Positions 3,257-23,241 of a stretch of 64,000 nt of DNA are shown here, one piece after another. Position numbers and translations under genes: made by a program. The notes below the pieces were generated by a model, which ran no database searches, was not told where the DNA came from, and worked only from the letters and a program-made list of their open reading frames with translations. Where the stretch lies: positions 1-64,000 of the forward strand of contig NZ_SDKK01000010.1 of assembly GCF_008107625.1 (NCBI RefSeq). The letters are read 5' to 3'. Origin of the DNA: Zoogloea oleivorans (GTDB taxonomy: Bacteria; Pseudomonadota; Gammaproteobacteria; Burkholderiales; Rhodocyclaceae). Positions within the stretch are counted from its first letter, which is position 1. Each line of letters begins with the position of its first letter.

Positions 3257-3591
3257 GCGGGTCGGACTTCAGTCCCACCCGGCTGGCTGAACGCGTGCTG
3301 TCGGACTGAAGTCCGACCCACAAAAGCAAACCGCGCAGGCCCCCTGTGGGTCGGACTTCAGTCCGACATCCCCAGGCTGAACGCACGTTGTCGGAATAAA
3401 TTCCGACCCACAAAGGCAAACCGCGCACGCTCCCCGTGGGTCGGACTTCAGTCCGACATCCCCAGGCTGAACGTGCGTTGTCGGAATAAATTCCGACCCA
3501 CAAAGGCAAACCGCGCACGCTCCCCGTGGGTCGGACTTCAGTCCGACATCCCCAGGCTGAACGTGCGTTGTCGGACTGAAGTCCGACCCAC
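3257..3591. repeat. Tandem array of four REPINs with 90-bp period
   Basis: Four inverted hairpin pairs lie at 3257-3321, 3346-3411, 3436-3501 and 3526-3591. The last three repeat every 90 bp, including a shared 24-bp spacer that ends in CTCCCC or similar. Arms occur in two compensating versions, GTCGGACT/AGTCCGAC and GTCGGAAT/ATTCCGAC, so stem pairing is kept while sequence changes. The array fills the 361-bp gap between mdtB and mdtC; I see no gene or promoter here. Confidence 0.88.
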
Positions 3592-3604: not shown

Positions 3605-6600
3605 TCATGCGGTCACGCCTTTCCAGCGCCGGGCCAGGCGGTCGAAGGCGAGGTAGATCACCGGGGTGGTGAACAGCGTCAGCACCTGGCTGACCAGCAG
3701 GCCGCCGACCATCGTGATGCCCAGCGGATGGCGCAGTTCCGAACCCACACCGGTGCCGAGCATCAGCGGCAGCGCGCCGAGCAGCGCGGCCAGGGTCGTC
3801 ATCAGAATCGGCCGGAAGCGCAGCAGGCAGGCCTGGAAGATCGCCTCCCGCGGGGCCAGCCCCTCGTTGCGTTCGGCGTCGAGGGCGAAGTCGATCATCA
3901 TGATGGCGTTCTTCTTGACGATGCCGATCAGGAGCACGATGCCGATGATGCCGACGATGCCCAGCTCGCTGCGCGCCAGCAGCAAGGCCAGCAGCGCGCC
4001 GACGCCGGCCGAGGGCAGCGTGGACAGGATGGTGACCGGGTGGATGTAGCTCTCGTAGAGCACGCCCAGCACGATGTACATGGTGACCACCGCGGCGAGG
4101 ATCAGCAGCAGGGTGCTCGACAGCGAAGCCTGAAAGGCCAGCGCGGCGCCCTGGAAGCTGGTTTCGATGCTCGCCGGCAGGCCCAGGTCGGCCTCGGCAG
4201 CGCGGATCGCTTCCACCGCATCGCCCAGCGCCGCCCCCTGCGCCAGATTGAAGGACACCGTGACCGCCGGGAATTGCCCCACATGGTTGATGGCCAGCAT
4301 GGTCGGCCGCTCCACCACCTTGGCCACGGCCGACAGCGGCACCTGCGCCCCGCCGGTGCCGGGCACGTACAGGTTGGCGATGGCGGCCGGACTGCTGCGG
4401 AACTCCGGCTTCACTTCCAGCACCACGCGGTACTGGGTGGCCTGGGTAAAGATGGTCGAAATCAGGCGCTGGCCGTAGGCGTTGTAGAGGGCATTGTCGA
4501 TGGCTGCGGTGCTCACCCCGAGGCGGCTGGCGGCGCTGCGGTCGATCTCGACCCACGCCTGCAGGCCCTTGTCCTGCAGGTCGCTGGCCACGTCGGCCAG
4601 TTGCGGCAGGGCTTGCAGGCGTTCAATCAGCTTCGGCACCCACTCGCCCAGCGCGGCCGAATCCGGCGATTGCAGCGAAAACTGGTACTGGGTGCGGCTG
4701 ACCCGGTCTTCAATCGACAAGTCCTGCACCGGCTGCATGTAGAGGGTGATGCCGGCCACTTTCTGCAACTCGGGGCCGAGGCGGCGGATCACCTCGGCGG
4801 CGCTGGCGTCGCGCTCGGCCAGCGGCTTGAGGCTGATCAACATGCGCCCGCTGTTGAGGGTGGCATTGCTGCCATCGACGCCGATGAAGGACGACAGGCT
4901 GGCCACGGCCGGGTCTTTCAACACCACCTCGGCCGCCGCCTGCTGGCGCTCGGCCATGGCCGGAAAGGAGATCGACTGGGCCGCCTCGGTGATGCCCTGG
5001 ATGGCGCCGGTATCCTGCAGCGGGAAGAAGCCCTTGGGCACCACCACGTAGAGCAGCGCGGTGACGACCAGCGTGCCGACGGCCACCAGCAGGGTCAGGC
5101 CCTGGCGGTCGAGCACCCATTCGAGCATGCGCGCGTAGCGGGCGATGACCCGGTCGAGGAACTCGCCGGTGACGCGGTAGAAACGACTCTGCTCGGACTC
5201 GGGCACGTGCTTGAGAAGTCGTGCGCACATCATCGGCGTCAGCGTGAGCGACACCACCGCGGAGATCAGGATGGCGATGGCCAGCGTGATGGCGAACTCG
5301 CGGAACAGGCGCCCGACCACGTCGCCCATGAAGAGCAGCGGAATCAGCACGGCGATCAGCGAGACGGTGAGCGAGATGATGGTGAAGCCGATCTGCTTGG
5401 CGCCCTTCAGCGCAGCCTGCATGGGCGTCTCGCCCTCCTCCACGTAGCGCGAGATGTTCTCGATCATCACGATGGCGTCGTCGACAACAAAGCCGGTGGA
5501 CACGGTCAACGCCATCAGCGTGAGGTTGTTGAGGCTGAAACCGGCCAGGTACATCACCCCGAAGGTGCCCACCAGCGACAGGGGCACTGCCACGCTGGGA
5601 ATGATGGTGGCCGGCACGCTGCGCAGGAACAGGAAGATCACCATCACCACCAGCGCCACCGCCAGCAGCAGTTCGATCTGCACGTCGTGCACCGAGGCAC
5701 GGATGGTGGTGGTGCGATCGCTCAGCACGGCCACATCCAGCGACGCGGGCAGGCTGGCGGTCATCTGCGGGAGCAGCGCGGCAACCCGGTCGGCCACCTC
5801 GATGACGTTGGCGCCGGGCTGGCGCTGCACGTTGATGATCACTGCCGAAGTCTGGTTGGCCCAGGCGGCCAGGCGCAGGTTCTCGGCGTCGTCCTTCAGG
5901 TCGGCCACGTCGTCGAGGCGCACCGGGTTGCCGTTTTTATAGGCGATGATCAGGCTGCGGTATTCGTCGGCGGAGCGCAGCTGGTCGTTGGCGTCGATGG
6001 TCGAGGCGCGCTGGGGGCCATCGAAGCTGCCCTTGGCCTGGGTCACGTTGGCGTTGGCGACGGCGGTGCGAATGTCTTCCAGGCCCAGCCCGTAGGCTGC
6101 GGCGGCAGTCGGATTGACCTGCACGCGCACCGCCGGGCGGCGTCCGCCGGCAATGCTCACCAGGCCCACGCCGGGCACCTGGGAGATTTTCTGGGCCAGG
6201 CGGCTTTCCACCAGGTCGTGGATGCGCGTGATCGGCAGGCTGGGCGAGCTGACCGCGATGGTCATGATCGGCGCATCCGCCGGGTTCACCTTGCTGTAGG
6301 TGGGCGGTGCCGGCAGATCCTGCGGCAGCAGGTTGGACGCGGCGTTGATGGCCGCCTGCACCTGCTGCTCGGCCACGTCGAGGCTCATCGCCAGTGTGAA
6401 GCGCAGGGTGATCACCGAAGCGCCACCGGAGCTGCTGGAGGACATTTCGTCGAGCCCCGGCATCTGGCCGAACTGACGCTCCAGCGGCGCGGTGATGGCC
6501 GAGGTCATCACGTCCGGGCTGGCACCGGGGTACAGCGTCTTGATCTGGATGGTCGGGTAATCGACCTCGGGCAGCGCCGAGATGGGCAAGAGCCGGTAGG

Positions 6601-6710: not shown

Positions 6711-6823
6711 TGTCGGACTGAAGTCCGACCCACAAAAGCAAGCGACGCAGCCTCCCCGTGGGTCGGACTTCAATCCGACATCCCCTGGCTGAGCGCGCGC
6801 TGTCGGAATAAATTCCGACCCAC
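6711..6823. repeat. REP half-element plus REPIN
   Basis: A single right-hand hairpin (6712-6733) is followed by the same 24-bp spacer length found in the 3.3 kb array and then a full REPIN (6758-6823). The layout looks like a truncated 90-bp tandem unit. It lies in the mdtA-mdtB gap. Confidence 0.85.
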
Positions 6824-6857: not shown

Positions 6858-8123
6858 TCAATGCCCCGGCCGGCCACTGCCGTTGCCGCGCTTCTTCTCG
6901 CGCCCCGGGGCGGTCACGGCTTTCGGGTCGATGGCCTCCACCTGGGCGCCGTCCTTGAGCTTGTCGAGGCCGTCCACCACCACCTTGTCGCCGGCGGCGA
7001 GGCCTTCATCCACGGCCGCCATGCCCGCATCGACCGCGCCGAGCTTGACCGGCACCGCCGCCACCTTGCTGTCGGCGCCAAGGCGATACACATAGCTGCC
7101 CTTGGCACCCTGCTGCACGGCAGCCGTCGGCACGGTGACCACGCCAGTCAGCGTATCGAGCAGCATGCGCACGTTGACGAACTGGTTCGGAAAGAGGCTG
7201 CCGTCCTTGTTGGCGAAGACCGCCTTCAGCTTGACGGTGCCGGTGGTGGTGTCGATCTGGCTATCCACGGCAAGCAGATCACCGGTGGCCAACCGCACCT
7301 TCATCTCCCGGTCCCACGCCTCCACCTTCAGGCCCTTGCCGTCGCGCACCCGCTGCATGACCGCCGGCAGGCGATCTTCGGGCACCGAGAACACCGCGGT
7401 GATCGGGCTCACCTGGGCGATGGTGACCAGCCCGGCGGTATCGGAAGCCTTGATCATGTTGCCCGGATCAACGGTGCGCAGGCCGGCGCGGCCAGCAATG
7501 GGGGCGGTGATCTTTGTGTAGGAAAGCTGCAGCTCGGCGCTTTTCACCGTGCCTTCGTCGGCCTGCACCGTGCCCTGGTACTGGCGCACCAGCGCTTCCT
7601 GGGTATCCACCTGCTGTCTGGCGATGGAGTCCTGGGCCAGCAGGCCCTTGTAGCGGTCGAGGTCGATCTTCGCGTTTTTGAGCAGCGCCGCGTCCCGCGC
7701 CAATTGGCCGCGGGCCTGTTCGAGGGTGGCCTTGAAGGGCTCCGGGTCGATCTGGGCGAGGAGTTCGCCGGCCTTGACCGGCTGGCCTTCGGTGAATTTA
7801 AGCGCCAGCAACTGGCCATCGACCCGCGAGCGCACCGTCACCTGGTTACGCGGCACCACGTTGCCAAGGGCCGGCAGCGTGACGCGGATGTCGCCGGGCT
7901 TGATCTCGGCGAGTGTCACCGGCGTGGGCCGGTCGCCCCGTCCGTTGGGGCCGCCGCGCGCTCCATTGGCCTGCTTGCCCTCAGGCCCGGCATCCTGCGT
8001 CGGGCGGTGAGTGGCGTACCAGGCACCGCCGCCGATCACGGCGACGCTCAACAGCCAGGGCCACAGACGACGTTTTTTGGGGGAAAGGGAGGAGGACGGC
8101 GCAGACGCAGACGGGCTGGACAT
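6858..8123 (-). CDS. mdtA: RND efflux periplasmic adaptor (membrane fusion protein), MdtA-like
   Basis: 421-residue adaptor that links the RND permeases to the outer-membrane channel. Residues 1-19 are cytosolic and Ser/Lys-rich, about 20-36 form a membrane anchor (WPWLLSVAVIGGGAWY), and the lipoyl half-motif lies near 95-125 (VDGQLLALKFTEGQPVKAGE), followed by a coiled-coil hairpin of about 60 residues, a beta-barrel and a C-terminal membrane-proximal domain (GVVTVPTAAVQQG). First gene of the mdtABC-outer membrane factor operon. The C-terminus is Arg/Lys/Gly-rich. No regulator is adjacent in the window. Confidence 0.92.
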   Translation of the reverse strand: MSSPSASAPSSSLSPKKRRLWPWLLSVAVIGGGAWYATHRPTQDAGPEGKQANGARGGPNGRGDRPTPVTLAEIKPGDIRVTLPALGNVVPRNQVTVRSRVDGQLLALKFTEGQPVKAGELLAQIDPEPFKATLEQARGQLARDAALLKNAKIDLDRYKGLLAQDSIARQQVDTQEALVRQYQGTVQADEGTVKSAELQLSYTKITAPIAGRAGLRTVDPGNMIKASDTAGLVTIAQVSPITAVFSVPEDRLPAVMQRVRDGKGLKVEAWDREMKVRLATGDLLAVDSQIDTTTGTVKLKAVFANKDGSLFPNQFVNVRMLLDTLTGVVTVPTAAVQQGAKGSYVYRLGADSKVAAVPVKLGAVDAGMAAVDEGLAAGDKVVVDGLDKLKDGAQVEAIDPKAVTAPGREKKRGNGSGRPGH

Positions 8124-8241
8124 GAAAAGATTTTCCGGGACGCACCCGGCCCGGGAGGGGCCAGGGAAAAGGCGCTGGGTATGCTACACGAAGCCTTTGT
8201 AAGACTGCGTAAAGACAGGACAAAGGCGCAGCAGGTTCCCC

Positions 8242-8306
8242 GTGGGTCGGACTTCAGTCCGACAACGCGCGTTCAGCCAGCCGAGTCGGACTGAAGTCCG
8301 ACCCAC
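8242..8306. repeat. REPIN
   Basis: GTGG plus hairpin GTCGGACTTCAGTCCGAC, a short spacer, then the inverted copy ending CCGACCCAC. It lies between the 97-residue gene and the efflux operon, both on the minus strand. Confidence 0.85.
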
Positions 8307-8319
8307 AAGACTCCGGCCT

Positions 8320-8613
8320 TTACTCTGCGCTCACGCTGCCGGGGACCACCGTATGCACGCCCGGCGCCCGCAGGCGTAGTTGCAGGACGAGGCTCGCCCC
8401 CGCCGTCAGGGCTTCGACGCGCGGCCGGTCTTCGGGTCCCACCAGCACCGTCAGCGCTTCACCGGCCGCCGCGTGGATCAGGCTGGGCAGCACGCCGCAG
8501 GGGCCGGCTTCGCTCACCGCCAGACTCACGCGCAGCCAGCCCGGCCGCGTCGGGTCGGCCCCTTGCTCAAGCAGGCGCGCTTTCAAGCGGGTGGCGTTGT
8601 CGACGATTTCCAC
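8320..8613 (-). CDS. Small uncharacterised protein, last gene of ATP-grasp/M6 operon
   Basis: 97-residue soluble protein of no family I recognise, with no signal peptide or membrane segment. It begins MEIVDNATRLKARLLEQGAD and is rich in Ala, Leu and Val, with a central PCGVLPSLIHAAAGEAL stretch. The start is GTG at 8613, chosen because an excellent Shine-Dalgarno sequence (GGAGGAG) stands 7 bases upstream; this makes it overlap the ATP-grasp gene by 47 bp, so translation is probably coupled. Its place at the end of the operon suggests an accessory or substrate-binding partner, but this is inference only. Confidence 0.65.
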   Translation of the reverse strand: MEIVDNATRLKARLLEQGADPTRPGWLRVSLAVSEAGPCGVLPSLIHAAAGEALTVLVGPEDRPRVEALTAGASLVLQLRLRAPGVHTVVPGSVSAE

Positions 8614-9538
8614 GGCGTGCTCCTCCGGATAGATGGATCACCAGCGCCTCGGCCACGGCCTCGGCCGACTCGCGGTCGAAACAACTATACGCTGGCGAGG
8701 GATTCACTTCGAAGCACACGTATTCGCCCTCCGGCGTGCGCTTCAGGTCGATGCCGCCCATCTCCAGCCCGAGGCTGGCGGTGAGGGCCACGCAGCGGCG
8801 GGCCAGATCGGGTGGCAGGCGGTCGGCCACCATCGCCGAGGCCTGGCCCTCCCGTCCGGCGTAGCGGTAATCAGTGGCATCCGAATCGATCCGCGTGCAG
8901 AAAACCTGCTCGCCTATCACATGCACCCGGTAATTCACCCCCGGCACATAAGCCTGGAAGAGGGTCGGCAGCGCCCGCACGCGGTCCAGTTGCGCGTCGA
9001 GCGCCCCTTCCAGCGGCGTCACGATGGAACGCACACCGCTGGCCGACTTGAACACCACGCGGCCATGCCGACGCCGAAAGGCCCGCACCGCATCCGGATC
9101 ATTGGTCAGCAGCGAAACCGGCGTGGCAAACCCGGCCGCACGGATCAACTGCGCCTGCCAGGGCTTGGACGCATTCGACATGCCCGCCGCCAGCCGGTTG
9201 GCTACGCGCAGCGGCGCCACCTCGAGCCAGGCATTGAGGGCATCGACAAAGTAATGATCGTGCAGCACCTCGCGCCCGTCGGTGGGCCGATTGCGCAGCA
9301 TGCCGGCCGGCACCACGCGCGTGTAGGCGCCACCGCAGCGCGTCAGGTCCACCGACTCGGCGCCGTTCCACCAGCGGGCAAAAAGCTGCCCACCGCGCAC
9401 GCCCGCCTCAATGTCCTGCCCGGCGAGCTGGCGCTGGTCGATAACCCGATGCGCCACCCCGAGGCGCTCGGCCGCCTCGATGGCCATGGCCAGCGGTGAC
9501 TCGCTGGCGATACCGCAGATCAGCACCGGGCCCTTCAT
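8567..9538 (-). CDS. ATP-grasp ligase (RimK-like)
   Basis: About 323 residues. ATP-grasp enzymes activate a carboxylate as acyl-phosphate and join it to an amine, thiol or hydroxyl. Visible features are a Lys in the nucleotide site (GRVVFKSASGVRSIV), the basic segment YRVHVIGEQVFCTRIDSD, and the metal/ATP motif GGIDLKRT...CFEVNPSPAY with the canonical D, E and N. An N-terminal pre-ATP-grasp region (MKGPVLICGIASESPLAMAI) precedes it. The start at 9538 overlaps the upstream stop as ATGA, indicating translational coupling. RimK-like enzymes modify peptides or protein tails; the substrate here is unknown, but the neighbouring M6 protease or its C-terminal tail is a candidate. Confidence 0.85.
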   Translation of the reverse strand: MKGPVLICGIASESPLAMAIEAAERLGVAHRVIDQRQLAGQDIEAGVRGGQLFARWWNGAESVDLTRCGGAYTRVVPAGMLRNRPTDGREVLHDHYFVDALNAWLEVAPLRVANRLAAGMSNASKPWQAQLIRAAGFATPVSLLTNDPDAVRAFRRRHGRVVFKSASGVRSIVTPLEGALDAQLDRVRALPTLFQAYVPGVNYRVHVIGEQVFCTRIDSDATDYRYAGREGQASAMVADRLPPDLARRCVALTASLGLEMGGIDLKRTPEGEYVCFEVNPSPAYSCFDRESAEAVAEALVIHLSGGARRGNRRQRHPLESAPA

Positions 9539-10338
9539 GACGCCACCGCCAGCGCGCGCTGCAGCCAGTCCGCACAACAGCCGGCCACCTTGTCGTCCTC
9601 CAGCGGCGGGCGGGGCTCAAGCTCGACGAGGCACGGCCCGACCGCCGTCGCCACAAAACCCAACGCTGCACAAGCAAGGCCAAGACGGCGCACGAAAGCC
9701 ACACACCGAGCAGCGAGCACCTTCTCCTCGTCCAGCCCGCAGCAGGCATCCCCGAACACATGAATCCACTGCAGAGCCAGCCCGGCGGCTTCGCCTCCCC
9801 GATACCAGCCCGCCACATCGCTGCCCCGCGGATAGGCACTCCCGCCCACCCGCCACAGGCCGGTGCCCGCACCGCCACGCAGGGACGAGGCAACCACAAA
9901 ATCCGCCACCTCGATCCCCTGTCCGGCCGCCAGCACATGCCAGCCGAGAGGATGCCGGGCGGCAGCATAAGGATTGTCACCCGACACCCAATTGGCCACC
10001 GGCACCTGAAGGCGGTGGAGCCAGCTGCTCAGCAGGGCGGCAAACTCGGCGCCGGCGTAATCGCGGTCGGCAGGACTGGCATGAGCAAAGGCCGGCAACG
10101 CCAGCGACGCGAGGCGGTTCAACACCACCCCGATGCTGGCGTCGTGGACTTGGCGCCCATCGGCAAAAACAAGCGTCGTGGCGCCTTCCCCCTCCGGCGA
10201 ATGCTGCCAGCGGGCACGGGCCAGATCGGCCACCGAGACGCGCAGCACCCGGCAGCCACGCTGGCGCAACTGGCGCCCGACGAACTCACTCGATACGTCG
10301 TCGGGCTCGGCGAGAATCAGCACCACACGCTCAGTCAC
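9535..10338 (-). CDS. Degenerate ATP-grasp-like protein
   Basis: 267 residues, no family confidently recognised. The N-terminus (VVLILAEPDDVSSEFVGRQL) resembles the pre-ATP-grasp region of peptide-maturing ligases, and the C-terminal part (LGLACAALGFVATAVGPCLVELEPRPPLEDD) lines up with the final ATP-grasp metal site, but the D and N of the D-E-N set are lost (FVATAVG, ELEPRP). I therefore read it as a catalytically dead ATP-grasp paralogue, perhaps a partner of the active ligase encoded immediately downstream. GTG start at 10338 follows a purine-rich GGGGGGAG; it is 23 bp after the protease gene and overlaps the ligase gene by 4 bp. Confidence 0.6.
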   Translation of the reverse strand: MTERVVLILAEPDDVSSEFVGRQLRQRGCRVLRVSVADLARARWQHSPEGEGATTLVFADGRQVHDASIGVVLNRLASLALPAFAHASPADRDYAGAEFAALLSSWLHRLQVPVANWVSGDNPYAAARHPLGWHVLAAGQGIEVADFVVASSLRGGAGTGLWRVGGSAYPRGSDVAGWYRGGEAAGLALQWIHVFGDACCGLDEEKVLAARCVAFVRRLGLACAALGFVATAVGPCLVELEPRPPLEDDKVAGCCADWLQRALAVAS

Positions 10339-10361
10339 CCTCTCACTCCCCCCGCAGCCCG

Positions 10362-12179
10362 CTAGCCCTGGGGCCGGTCCAGCAGGCGCTTGCCGACGCT
10401 GGAGTCGGGGTCGACCTCGCTGTCCTCCTCGGCGTAGGCGCTGTCCGACAGGTCTGGACGCAAATCCCGGGAGATAAAGGGCTCCGCCACCTGTCCGCCC
10501 ATCAACAGCGCCTCGATATTGGCGATGCGCGCCTCCAGGGAGTTGATCTGGGCCACCCGCAGACCGGTACCGATGCCCGGACGGTCGGCCAGCTTGTTCT
10601 CGACCAATTTCTCGGTGAAACCCTTGTCGAGCCCCACCGATTTGTCGGTCACCGGCTTTTCGGGCTGCTTCTCGATGCGCTTTTCGACCAGCTTCTCACT
10701 CGCCACACTCTTGTCCGCAGCCAGCAGCTTTTCGGTCGCGACTTCCTTCCTCAGCTTGGTCACCGTGCACTTCACCCGCAGGTTGGCGCTGATCATCGGG
10801 CCGGAAGGGCCGATACCCGTTACCGCCACGCAGGTATTGGCCCCCGAGTACGACATGGAGTTGGGGGTCGAGGTGTTGTTGAAAGTGGTGTTGTTGCCGG
10901 AGCCCGGGTACGGGTCGCCGCCATCGCCGCGATTGTGGTCGAGCTCCATGTCGCGCTTGCCGTCGGCCTGCATCAGCGCCACCTTGTAGTGGGACTCGTT
11001 GGTGTTGCCGGCCACGCTGTCGTCGATGTGCCAGATGAGCAGCCCGCCGGCCGGCAGCGACGCATCGAAGCCGGTCTTCTGGCGGTTCTCGACCAGGAAG
11101 TATTCGCTGCTCGCCGCGCCGTTCTTCCACAGGCGATAAATCTTGCCCGAGTCCTTCACGTCGGCGATGTTCTTCGACCCGTTGGCAGTCACGTTGGTCA
11201 CGCTGGCCCAGCCCTGGTTGGCCTTGCACCACGCCGACGGATGCACCGGCGTATTACCGCCGCCACCCCAGCTGCCGCCCGCCATCAGACACCAGTTACC
11301 GATACCTTCCGAGGTGTAGTCGGTGTCGTACAGATCGGGGAAGCCGAACAGCAGGTGACCCAGTTCATGGCAGCACACACCGATCTTCGAGTCTTCCGGC
11401 ACCGTCAGGTAGGCGTAGATCTTGGTGCCGTCCACATTCATCGCACCGCCGTCGACAGTCCATTTGTGCGACCAGATGTCTCCGGAGCTGCCCGTCACCT
11501 CGGCCCCGCCCCCCGCGTGCACGACGATAAAAGCATCCACATAGCCGTTGCCGTCGTTGTCATAGAGCCCGAAGTTGACGCTGGCGTTGGAGGCCAGCAC
11601 CGCATCCCGCGCCATCGTGCGGGCGTTGGGCAGGGCCGCGCCGGTGCCCGATGCGCCGTGGGCGTACTGGGCCAGCGTCTTCGGCATGCGGAAGGGCCCG
11701 ACCACCTGGCCCTGGATGTTCACCAGCCCGCGCGTCACGTCGGTGAAATACTCGCGCACGCTCTTGGTCGGGATCACCCCGGTCGAAAAGAACAACTGCT
11801 CGAAGTGGGAAGGCGTTTGTATCATCGGCTTGTCGGAAAAATCCACCAGCACCACGATCACCCGCACCACGCCCCGCAGCGGCGCCCGCTCGGCCGCCGC
11901 GCCGCGGATCATGCTCGGCGAGGCGCCCAGCGGATAATCCTCCGGCGGAAAAATCATGCCGTCGTTGAAACCGTCATGCCGCGGCTCCGATGCACGAAGC
12001 TGGAACGAGGCCATGAAATCCTTGGCCTTGCCGCGCATCGATGTCAGCTCCTTCTTCAGCTTGTCCGCCAGTTCGGGGCATGGCGCCACCATGCAGCGCT
12101 CCCCGTCCTCACTGGCCCGCGCTTCCCTGTAGATGTGCTGCAAATCCGACGACAGGGACCGATAACGATATGTGCTCAT
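10362..12179 (-). CDS. M6-family zinc metalloprotease with charged C-terminal tail
   Basis: 605 residues. The zinc motif HELGH (about 271-275) is followed by LLFGFPDLYD, as in immune inhibitor A-type M6 peptidases. Other M6 features are DGNGYVDAFIVVHAGGGAEV, IWSHKW and GIGNWCLMAGGSW. Most M6 enzymes are secreted, yet this one starts MSTYRYRSLSSDLQHIYREA with no signal peptide. Beyond about residue 480 is a low-complexity tail with repeated EK/DKS pairs, then a heptad segment (VAQINSLEARIANIEALLMG) and an acidic Ser/Asp end (SDSAYAEEDSEVDPDSS). The ATG at 12179 has AAGGAGGGCGAG upstream. First gene of the operon with two ATP-grasp-like genes; the tail is a possible modification site. Confidence 0.85.
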   Translation of the reverse strand: MSTYRYRSLSSDLQHIYREARASEDGERCMVAPCPELADKLKKELTSMRGKAKDFMASFQLRASEPRHDGFNDGMIFPPEDYPLGASPSMIRGAAAERAPLRGVVRVIVVLVDFSDKPMIQTPSHFEQLFFSTGVIPTKSVREYFTDVTRGLVNIQGQVVGPFRMPKTLAQYAHGASGTGAALPNARTMARDAVLASNASVNFGLYDNDGNGYVDAFIVVHAGGGAEVTGSSGDIWSHKWTVDGGAMNVDGTKIYAYLTVPEDSKIGVCCHELGHLLFGFPDLYDTDYTSEGIGNWCLMAGGSWGGGGNTPVHPSAWCKANQGWASVTNVTANGSKNIADVKDSGKIYRLWKNGAASSEYFLVENRQKTGFDASLPAGGLLIWHIDDSVAGNTNESHYKVALMQADGKRDMELDHNRGDGGDPYPGSGNNTTFNNTSTPNSMSYSGANTCVAVTGIGPSGPMISANLRVKCTVTKLRKEVATEKLLAADKSVASEKLVEKRIEKQPEKPVTDKSVGLDKGFTEKLVENKLADRPGIGTGLRVAQINSLEARIANIEALLMGGQVAEPFISRDLRPDLSDSAYAEEDSEVDPDSSVGKRLLDRPQG

Positions 12180-12337
12180 GACCTCGCCCTCCTTCTTGGG
12201 CGCGCTGCGATGGCGCGCACCAGTCATTGATCGAATCAACGCGGAGACGGACAGCTTCCACACCCGGAACGGGTAGGCAAAAGAGATGCAGAAGGACTTT
12301 GGACAACTGAAAGATATCAGCCCCCGGAGATATGAGA

Positions 12338-13495
12338 CTAGGTTATGGATGGCGCCCGGGCAAGAGAACGTGTGCTGGCCTTGCGGGCACGCACCTTGTG
12401 CCGCCAGCGCAGCCAACCGGTCGCAAAGGCCAGCGTCGGCAGCAGCCCGCCCAGGCAGGCCAGCAGGCGCCCGGCCAGGCCGAAAACCTCGCCGTTGTGG
12501 AGAGGATGCATCCAGTCCATGAAAGTGTCGCCACCGCTGTTCTCCAGCGGATCGCGCACGGCGAGGATGTCCCCGCTTGCCGGATGCACCCACACCTGGC
12601 TGCGTGGAAAACGCCGTCCTGGCTCGGCAGCCTGATGAAAGCGCACCGAGATCGGCTTGCCGGCGCGGCCCGGGGTTTCGATCCAGCGCAGCTCGGCGCC
12701 GGGGAAGCGGGCCTGGGCGATGCGTACCGCCTCGGCGAGCGGAATCGGCGTGGCGCCCTCCTCCAGCAAACCGGCCGGCGCCCGGAAGGACGGGCGCAGG
12801 GGCGAGAAGCGGTCCACCACACTGCGGGCCTCGTCCGGCAGGGCCAGCACGCTGCCGGTAAGCGCCAGCACGGCCAGCACGACAAAGCCGTAAACACCCG
12901 ACAACACATGCAGATCATAGGTCTTGCGCACGACACCGCGACGCAGCACCGGCTTCAGCGCCGCCCCCAGACGCGCCCGGCTCGGCCACCACAGGTACAG
13001 CCCGCTGAACAGCGAGACCAGCAGCACCAGCCCGGCAATGCCCACCGCCGTTTTGCCGGCGGAGCCCAGCAGCAACGTGTAGTGCAGATCATAGAGCCAG
13101 GTCACCGCGTAGTCGCCCCACAGGCGCCCGCTGGTCACCTGCAGGGAGTCCGGATCAAGGCTCAACATGAGCGGTGCAAAACCGCGTCCGGCTGTTTCCG
13201 GCGGATTGTAGTAACGCACCCGCAAGGCGTCGTTGGCGTCCAGCGGCATCTCGATGCGCCACGGCCCGTCGTGTTCGGGATACACGGCCTGGACCCGGCT
13301 CAGCACCGCGTCCGGCGACGGCGCCTCGATCACCGGGCGACTCACCTGCAGCGCCGGGTTGAGCGCCTCGTCCACGCCCAGGTAAAAAACCAGCACGCTG
13401 CCGGTCAGCCCGAGCAGCGCAAACAGCCCGCCCAGCACCAGCCCGACGTACAGATGCACGTCCAGCCACAGGCGCCGGGCGCGCGAAGCCGCCAT
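12338..13495 (-). CDS. PepSY-domain membrane protein (iron-uptake associated)
   Basis: About 385 residues. It has four or so transmembrane helices: near residues 12-34 (LYVGLVLGGLFALLGLTGSV), about 150-172 (GIAGLVLLVSLFSGLYLWW), about 195-220 and about 345-370, with PepSY-type periplasmic regions between them. The DWMHPLHNGEVFG motif ahead of the last helix is characteristic of the PepSY_TM family that accompanies siderophore receptors and may act in ferric reduction. The ATG at 13495 overlaps the stop of the TonB receptor gene as TGATG, so the two are translated together. Confidence 0.87.
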   Translation of the reverse strand: MAASRARRLWLDVHLYVGLVLGGLFALLGLTGSVLVFYLGVDEALNPALQVSRPVIEAPSPDAVLSRVQAVYPEHDGPWRIEMPLDANDALRVRYYNPPETAGRGFAPLMLSLDPDSLQVTSGRLWGDYAVTWLYDLHYTLLLGSAGKTAVGIAGLVLLVSLFSGLYLWWPSRARLGAALKPVLRRGVVRKTYDLHVLSGVYGFVVLAVLALTGSVLALPDEARSVVDRFSPLRPSFRAPAGLLEEGATPIPLAEAVRIAQARFPGAELRWIETPGRAGKPISVRFHQAAEPGRRFPRSQVWVHPASGDILAVRDPLENSGGDTFMDWMHPLHNGEVFGLAGRLLACLGGLLPTLAFATGWLRWRHKVRARKASTRSLARAPSIT

Positions 13496-23105: not shown

Positions 23106-23241
23106 TGTCGGACTGAAGTCCGACCCACAAAATCATAGCGCCCGAAAGACCAGACCTATCGGCCTGCGATGCTTCGAGTCGGACTGAAATCCGACCTACA
23201 AAACCGTAGCATCCTCGGTGGGTCGGACTTCAGTCCGACTC
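23106..23241. repeat. Three REP hairpins
   Basis: Single hairpins of the REP family lie at about 23106-23128 (GTCGGACTGAAGTCCGAC, then CCAC), 23178-23199 (a diverged copy with GAAATCC) and 23218-23239 (GTGG orientation). They occupy most of the gap between the aldehyde dehydrogenase and the lytic transglycosylase. Confidence 0.8.

Follow-up and report, generated by a model that had tools for sequence, protein, structure and literature searches.

We have analyzed a stretch of 64,000 nucleotides of Zoogloea oleivorans (contig NZ_SDKK01000010.1, positions 1 to 64,000 of the forward strand), hereafter the window, and in particular four genes that follow one another on its minus strand between positions 12179 and 8320. 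The first (10362..12179, ATG start) encodes a 605-amino-acid (aa) M6-family metalloprotease with a C-terminal tail, recognized in the translation and through the families TIGR03296 (E = 4.4e-74) and PF05547; the second (9535..10338, GTG start) a degenerate partner of 267 aa, which resembles a graspetide synthetase and appears to be a pseudoenzyme; the third (8567..9538, ATG start) an intact graspetide-type ATP-grasp synthetase of 323 aa, which is the proposed ligase; and the fourth (8320..8613, GTG start) an accessory protein of 97 aa with a predicted OB fold. The three junctions consist respectively of a 23-bp gap (10339-10361), a 4-bp ATGA overlap (9535-9538) and a 47-bp overlap (8567-8613). 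These four open reading frames (ORFs), with their gap and overlaps, had been described in an earlier annotation of the window (the original prediction), and were all verified here. There was no sigma-70-like promoter in the interval 8100-12500, and the idea of a defence system was set aside, as PADLOC gave no match.

A contig scan with the window ligase returned nine loci, six of which contain all four genes. Their order is kept at the protein level in all six close relatives (five loci of Zoogloea/Zoogloeaceae and that of Rhodocyclus purpureus, with ligase identities of 75-95%), so that the arrangement is not due to chance. The outer flanks of the block in Rhodocyclus are unlike those of the others, while mdtA/RND genes lie downstream of the operon in all five Zoogloea/Zoogloeaceae loci (the contigs of L015 and L016 stop within them): for this reason we consider the four genes a unit, and the proposal of a single gene unit in the original prediction is backed by the data on its relatives. 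Export through the mdtA/RND genes was discarded, because they are not conserved in Rhodocyclus, and we regard them as mere neighbours. The 97-aa gene is considered accessory, since it is limited to seven Zoogloea/Rhodocyclus loci of the 45 searched; once its OB fold had been predicted by modelling, the possibilities that it might be a precursor or a HesB-like protein were abandoned. At the Chitinophagaceae locus L064 an ORF of 91 aa (6092-6367) occupies the position of the OB-fold gene, and its similarity to the 97-aa protein is not significant (E 0.07).

The M6 domain scores well above the cut-offs of both families (249.9 bits vs 110.8 for TIGR03296, 90.5 bits vs 22 for PF05547). The segment HELGHLLFGFPDLYD (11325..11369, minus strand), identical in L019 and L064, contains the putative zinc-binding and catalytic HExxH motif of the M6 domain (HELGH, residues 271-275). 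A signal peptide is not obvious by the rough measure of hydropathy (the highest 12-residue mean within the first 45 residues is 0.47), and a PDB sequence search with the M6 protein gave no match at E 0.1. The tail can be described as four successive parts, all on the minus strand: a Lys/Glu/Asp-rich track (residues 475-532; 10584..10757), which is the proposed crosslinking core; a segment starting with SLEARIANIEALL (10479..10541), which appears helix-like from its pattern in an alignment of ten tails (A2); the sequence FISRDLRPDL (10449..10478), a case of the motif FI-x4-RP-x-(L/V), which we propose to be the recognition element, or follower; and an acidic end (10365..10448). The F, I, R and P of the motif are invariant in alignment A2. 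Among the seven M6 tails the Lys, Glu and Asp columns are 91% conserved, the hydrophobic columns 65% and the remaining ones 70%. Differences in length are mostly due to (E/D)K units. Pfam and NCBIfam families gave no match to the tail above cut-off; below it, the charged track alone had some weak ones.

The ligase stands nearest to the TIGR04187/MvdC/MvdD families: its best NCBIfam family is TIGR04187 (4.4e-28), and its best sequence matches in the PDB are PsnB (7drm, 1e-22), MdnB/MdnC, PruB, CdnC and AMdnB (the entries include 5ig8, 5ig9 and 9bou). The ATP/Mg residues are present, and the catalytic residues K125, K164, R204, D223, R225, E277 and N279 are intact in four aligned ligases, and were also aligned with PsnB. 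RimK, which shares the ATP-grasp fold, is an enzyme acting on a protein tail; similarity to it is weaker both in sequence and in fold, the ligase falling below the cut-off of the RimK family TIGR00768 (42.2 bits vs 143.4) and passing barely that of the broad RimK-like ATP-grasp domain of Pfam (21.9 vs 21). Since the graspetide families score higher in sequence and fold, RimK-like amino-acid addition was dropped. The comparison with RimK and microviridin enzymes made in the original prediction thus holds as far as a peptide-modifying ATP-grasp family is concerned, while the ligase stands nearer to the graspetide (microviridin/plesiocin) synthetases than to RimK. The degenerate partner has kept the graspetide-synthetase fold (249 of its 267 residues align to AMdnB, and most of the fold is therefore retained) and has lost the catalytic residues.

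The distribution of the ligase was studied by searching samples of whole genomes with a ligase profile, counting as positive those with E<1e-60 (seed genomes included). Ligase-positive genomes were 2 of 296 in Bacteroidota, 3 of 297 in Acidobacteriota, 5 of 301 in Chloroflexota, 4 of 195 in Chitinophagaceae, 6 of 158 in one class of Chloroflexota and 3 of 193 in one class of Acidobacteriota; the single positive among 299 Pseudomonadota was the genome of the window itself. With the window ligase (P0003) as query, six of 40 genomes matched at E<1e-160: its own and five of the 22 others of the genus. With the ligase alone as bait we gathered 28 loci, from Zoogloea, Rhodocyclus, Bacteroidota, Acidobacteriota, Chloroflexota and one Rickettsiales plasmid, of which 27 belong to one clade of the ligase tree (support 98/97) and one, L021, was assigned by profile score; the latter does not appear in the tree, as a stop interrupts its ligase ORF. 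Weaker matches (1e-31 to 1e-43), which are other graspetide-type ATP-grasp enzymes, were used as controls. The ligase has a further, partner-like ORF as its neighbour in all loci but L025, where none was recognized (27 of 28); the partner profile was built from 22 of these ORFs, and in L087 the score of the partner is no better than that of its ligase. Among 17 loci outside the group, L068 is the only one with more than one synthetase match, and all three of its matches are complete synthetases.

The motif FI-x4-RP-x-(L/V) accompanies this ligase group almost without exception. It occurs in 27 of the 28 loci, the remaining one (L075) being a cut contig of 3 kb, and is missing from all 21 related ATP-grasp loci that do not belong to the group (17 in a shared scan and 4 more on plasmids); as the ligases of L024 and L070 are identical and those of L069 and L099 nearly so, these 21 represent fewer independent loci. 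L131-L134 are absent from the tree, and some of the outside contigs are short. In the first 20 loci a looser form of the pattern (FI and RP separated by 2-6 residues, with D, E, P or N after RP) was found once per locus, and these 20 were all the hits among 1847 ORFs of 30 loci, ten of which were controls (one of them, L025, was later moved to the group). The strict form was set after these first 20 loci and before seven further ones, for which we stated in advance that a neighbouring ORF should contain the strict motif together with a track whose Lys, Glu and Asp content is 30% or more. Six of the seven were testable (L075 lies at a contig edge): the motif was present in all six, and the expectation held in full for four (L087, L090, L091, L092), whereas the other two (L088, L089) had the motif within the ligase ORF and no track. 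Among the 339 ORFs of the test loci there was one stray hit, in a PIN-domain protein encoded in L090, and no motif was present in the 432 ORFs of eight new control loci. A hidden Markov model (HMM) of the tail detects 14 of the first 20 loci at E<1e-6, ten of these having been used in building it; it is weak for L059, L060 and L065, and the motifs of L058, L061 and L062 were spotted by reading. Of 27 whole genomes that encode the ligase, 16 gave strong tail matches (E<1e-14), and these fall at the ligase locus with the exception of one apparent contig-end duplicate; the remaining 11 gave nothing better than 0.0019, or no match, so that the profile leaves room for further distant tails.

Locus L025, which carries the plasmid enzyme of Candidatus Megaera polyxenophila and lies within the clade, was first taken as a control because no ORF of at least 70 aa had the motif; when ORFs down to 30 aa were scanned, a Lys-rich ORF of 41 aa with the sequence FISFDLRPDL was found directly upstream of the ligase. 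The order of genes on this Rickettsiales plasmid (5612-9112) is a 53-aa Lys/Asp-rich ORF, the 41-aa motif ORF and the ligase, followed by a gene that by eye looks like a degenerate ATP-grasp and by two more that carry the annotation isopenicillin N synthase-like dioxygenase.

The proteins that bear the motif are otherwise unrelated. In the first scan three loci without M6 protein retained the ATP-grasp pair next to a different upstream protein: in L020 (Chitinophaga) a NAL1/trypsin-like protein with matches under cut-off and a visible GDSG, in L021 (a Chloroflexota metagenome-assembled genome) a subtilase (S8), and in L022 (Acidicapsa) a stand-alone protein of about 210-220 aa without enzyme domain. 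All three end alike, with a Lys/Glu-rich track, a helix-like segment and the motif. The cargo of other loci is an M6 gene with tail in L064 (2516-4288; an in-frame stop interrupts the ORF), subtilases in L063 (S8) and L092, an M43 protein in L057, a protein with a HELVEA stretch and no Pfam match in L060, a kelch protein in L058, a protein with an N_BRCA1 immunoglobulin (Ig) domain in L059, a Rho_N protein in L056, an unknown protein in L065, a 2218-aa protein with a DUF6519 domain and, by eye, Ig-type repeats in L087 (2-6658), and a trypsin-like protein in L091. The latter passes only the cut-off of Peptidase_S7 (21.5 vs 20), and the trypsin-like label of L020 and L091 is based on NAL1/trypsin matches under cut-off and on their mutual identity of 47%. 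In some Chloroflexota the motif is near the N-terminus instead, of a stand-alone peptide in L061, of a small protein in L090 and of a PqqD-like protein in L062 (4460-8440); a gene near the latter looks by eye like an HPr kinase, which may hint at a tie between two kinds of peptide modification. As to their distribution, S8 cargo is found in Chitinophagaceae, Acidobacteriota and Chloroflexota (L021, outside the tree), trypsin-like cargo in Chitinophaga and Acidobacteriota, and M6 cargo in Zoogloea/Rhodocyclus and Chitinophagaceae: this scatter of cargo types over the ligase clade suggests an exchange of cargo under a constant tag. In a control locus of another graspetide group (L066, 8474-9601) the upstream protein, of 375 aa, consists of DPKxxDPK repeats and is likely to be a large Lys/Asp precursor.

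These data shift the emphasis away from the protease, which had been placed at the centre of the system: relatives replace it with other proteases, with non-proteases or with nothing, while the motif and the ATP-grasp pair stay. Likewise, the four genes adjoin one another, as had been expected, within Zoogloeaceae/Rhodocyclaceae; elsewhere one finds the ATP-grasp pair with a motif protein, and a single locus (L064) with M6 cargo. They also bear on the explanation offered for peptidase-linked ATP-grasp loci in two papers (Makarova et al. 2022, PMC8939145; Carter 2026, PMC13097080, for graspetide group 32), in which the protease would cut or supply precursors encoded elsewhere, or confer self-resistance, the tail being irrelevant to the ligase. 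That both papers arrived at this kind of proposal speaks for it, but the motif is also carried by non-proteases and by stand-alone peptides, and in six plasmid homologues of the M6 and trypsin-like proteases, whose surroundings (about 3-4 kb) contain no such ligase, both the motif and a C-terminal track are missing (one of them has 32% Lys, Glu and Asp, in its N-terminal part); we consider it highly improbable for the loci studied here.

Judging from the sequences, the genes form a unit, the ligase belongs to the graspetide-type family with its catalytic residues in place, the partner has lost them, and a portable motif goes one-to-one with the ligase group. We infer the modification itself, the Lys-Glu/Asp bonds, the parts played by the partner and the OB-fold protein, and the function of the stapled tail. 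The operon would yield an enzyme, here the M6 metalloprotease, that is cargo and substrate at once. The synthetase (8567-9538), probably in a complex with its catalytically dead paralogue (9535-10338), would bind the follower (helix plus FI-x4-RP-x-L/V) near the end of the tail, and use ATP for activating Glu/Asp side chains of the adjoining Lys/Glu/Asp-rich track; these would then be joined to Lys side chains as isopeptide (lactam) crosslinks, each with the loss of 18 Da. On the protease, the stapled tail might serve latency, stability or anchoring. We regard it as probable that the C-terminal tail of the M6 protein is the substrate of the graspetide-type synthetase, and that the product is the full-length protein with a covalently stapled tail. 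In the original prediction the tail was a suspect in the lack of any small precursor gene: none was seen in this analysis either, and with the comparative data the tail becomes the best candidate. The more general notion, a widespread modular system in which one group of graspetide synthetases and their dead partners staple portable tails on unrelated enzymes, with a full-length tailed and possibly interchain-linked enzyme as the product, is advanced more tentatively and at somewhat less than even confidence.

The fate of the track after crosslinking might be a different one if these were ordinary ribosomally synthesized and post-translationally modified peptides (RiPPs), with the track as a core that is cut off and released as a peptide, such as a protease inhibitor, and the enzyme domain as an oversized leader or a self-processing protease. 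Release of the core is normal for graspetides, all those characterized so far are protease inhibitors according to Makarova et al. 2022, and stand-alone substrates do exist in L022, L025, L061 and L090. Moreover, 15 of 21 proteins with a C-terminal tail have a Gly-Gly doublet in the 75 residues that precede the motif, versus 6.8 expected from shuffling. In L059 the doublet precedes the track. The window tail, however, has no Gly-Gly, the cargo of several loci (kelch, Ig, Rho_N, DUF6519) is not a protease, and an entire catalytic domain makes little sense as a leader; release of a free peptide thus appears unlikely.

Several observations weigh against stapling of the tail. The score of the window ligase for TIGR04187 (98.4 bits) is far from the curated cut-off of 350, as are those of the L020 and L022 ligases (140.8 and 127.7 bits), although the NCBIfam graspetide cut-offs may refer to narrower subfamilies. 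The motif pattern was picked by inspection of the first 20 loci, and seven of these are closely related. In the tail there is no evident counterpart of Phhx(1,2)h, the usual leader motif of graspetides. Of 26 motif proteins (L025 is outside this count), 23 reach 38% or more of Lys, Glu and Asp over 60 residues, but the track is absent in the other three substrate ORFs (L062, L088 and L089), which fall into one subclade of the ligase tree. In two of these, L088 (6926-8677) and L089 (1460-2938), the motif is within the ligase ORF itself, in a C-terminal extension, with 18% and 20% Lys, Glu and Asp, and the ORF could represent a ligase that modifies itself or a fusion with a precursor. L025 sits on a long branch and its placement in the tree is unsure; its 41-aa peptide has no acid outside the motif, and Lys-acid links inside its track are therefore impossible as proposed. 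The spacing from Lys to acid has no single period: distances of 1, 4 and 5 are enriched, in repeats that make these counts non-independent, and a single ring size was not found. Finally, stretches rich in Lys and Glu can be plain spacers or helices.

Some of these same points are what one would expect if the tail were a docking tag that recruits the ligase pair non-covalently or targets the enzyme, while the target of the ligase is some other molecule, or the cargo is conjugated to a partner or to amino acids in the manner of RimK. Besides the three ORFs without track and the acid-free peptide of L025, the better conservation of FI-x4-RP than of the track fits this explanation, and the RimK branch of the ATP-grasp enzymes is one that elongates the ends of proteins. 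It is opposed by the similarity of the ligase, which in sequence and fold is nearer to graspetide synthetases, and by the Lys, Glu and Asp positions being the most conserved in the seven M6 tails; furthermore, no other recurrent small gene was noticed beside the ligase, in loci that were not searched systematically for one. On balance we find docking quite unlikely, and prefer modification of the tail.

Among the other features of the window, an 18-bp repeat, GTCGGACTTCAGTCCGAC, is dispersed over the plus strand (6 copies) and the minus strand (5 copies), partly paired as hairpins, at 113, 3300-3587, 6712-6729, 8246-8302 and 23107-23239. One copy of this dispersed repeat forms a 22-bp perfect inverted repeat (8242..8306) in the interval between the operon and the mdtA-like gene.

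With the graspetide systems of microviridin (MdnB/MdnC), plesiocin (PsnB) and fuscimiditide (ThfB), the loci described here share the synthetase family, the catalytic residues, substrates rich in acids and in Lys, Ser or Thr, and a short motif set apart from the core. Known graspetides, however, derive from a small precursor, while the proposed substrate here is the tail of a folded enzyme, the window motif being part of a 605-aa protease; also unlike known graspetides are the position of the FI-x4-RP-x-(L/V) motif, at the C-terminus in most cases, and the dead paralogue beside the ligase. In L061 and L090 the motif lies near the N-terminus, like an ordinary leader. Recent papers offer precedents for these traits: a synthetase that requires a partner protein (PMC13097080), a graspetide leader of ThfB that is functional when moved C-terminal, with RPFG as key sequence (PMC13003496), and whole proteins, engineered in the laboratory, that are crosslinked and cyclized by ThfB (Choi 2025, PMC12291112), where the arrangement considered here would be a natural one. 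Corallotide (graspetide group 15, PMC13097080) has a large precursor with repeated Lys/acid motifs resembling the tails, and a KxxxD isopeptide established by nuclear magnetic resonance on one fragment; in contrast with the tails, it is stand-alone, with an oxygenase and no enzyme cargo. Group 32 of the same paper (Carter 2026), compared by its description only, has 'diverse families of neighboring proteases', as seen here, for which maturation or resistance is suggested.

A close precedent is Makarova et al. 2022 (PMC8939145), where two ATP-grasp branches (7 and 8) are associated with unrelated peptidase families, a precursor was not found, branch 8 has a truncated inactive ATP-grasp, and the peptidases are proposed to cut other proteins. 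Matched by this description alone, the window-type loci probably correspond to branch 8, as they too combine an ATP-grasp enzyme and an inactive second one with unrelated peptidases, and the label 'undescribed' given to the system in the original prediction was too strong. The differences are that here a shared tail is proposed as the precursor, that the cargo includes non-peptidases, and that the partner keeps most of its fold. No report of graspetide substrates as enzyme tails was present among the matches listed in the open-licence literature. The motif and the tail thus provide a concrete candidate precursor for loci that fit the description of the peptidase-linked ATP-grasp loci left without one by Makarova et al. 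If our interpretation is true, it would extend natural graspetide chemistry beyond small peptides to enzymes, with one tag on many cargos; it would offer a ready-made route for crosslinking or stabilizing protein tails, and would account for some low-complexity Lys/Glu tails that otherwise look meaningless.

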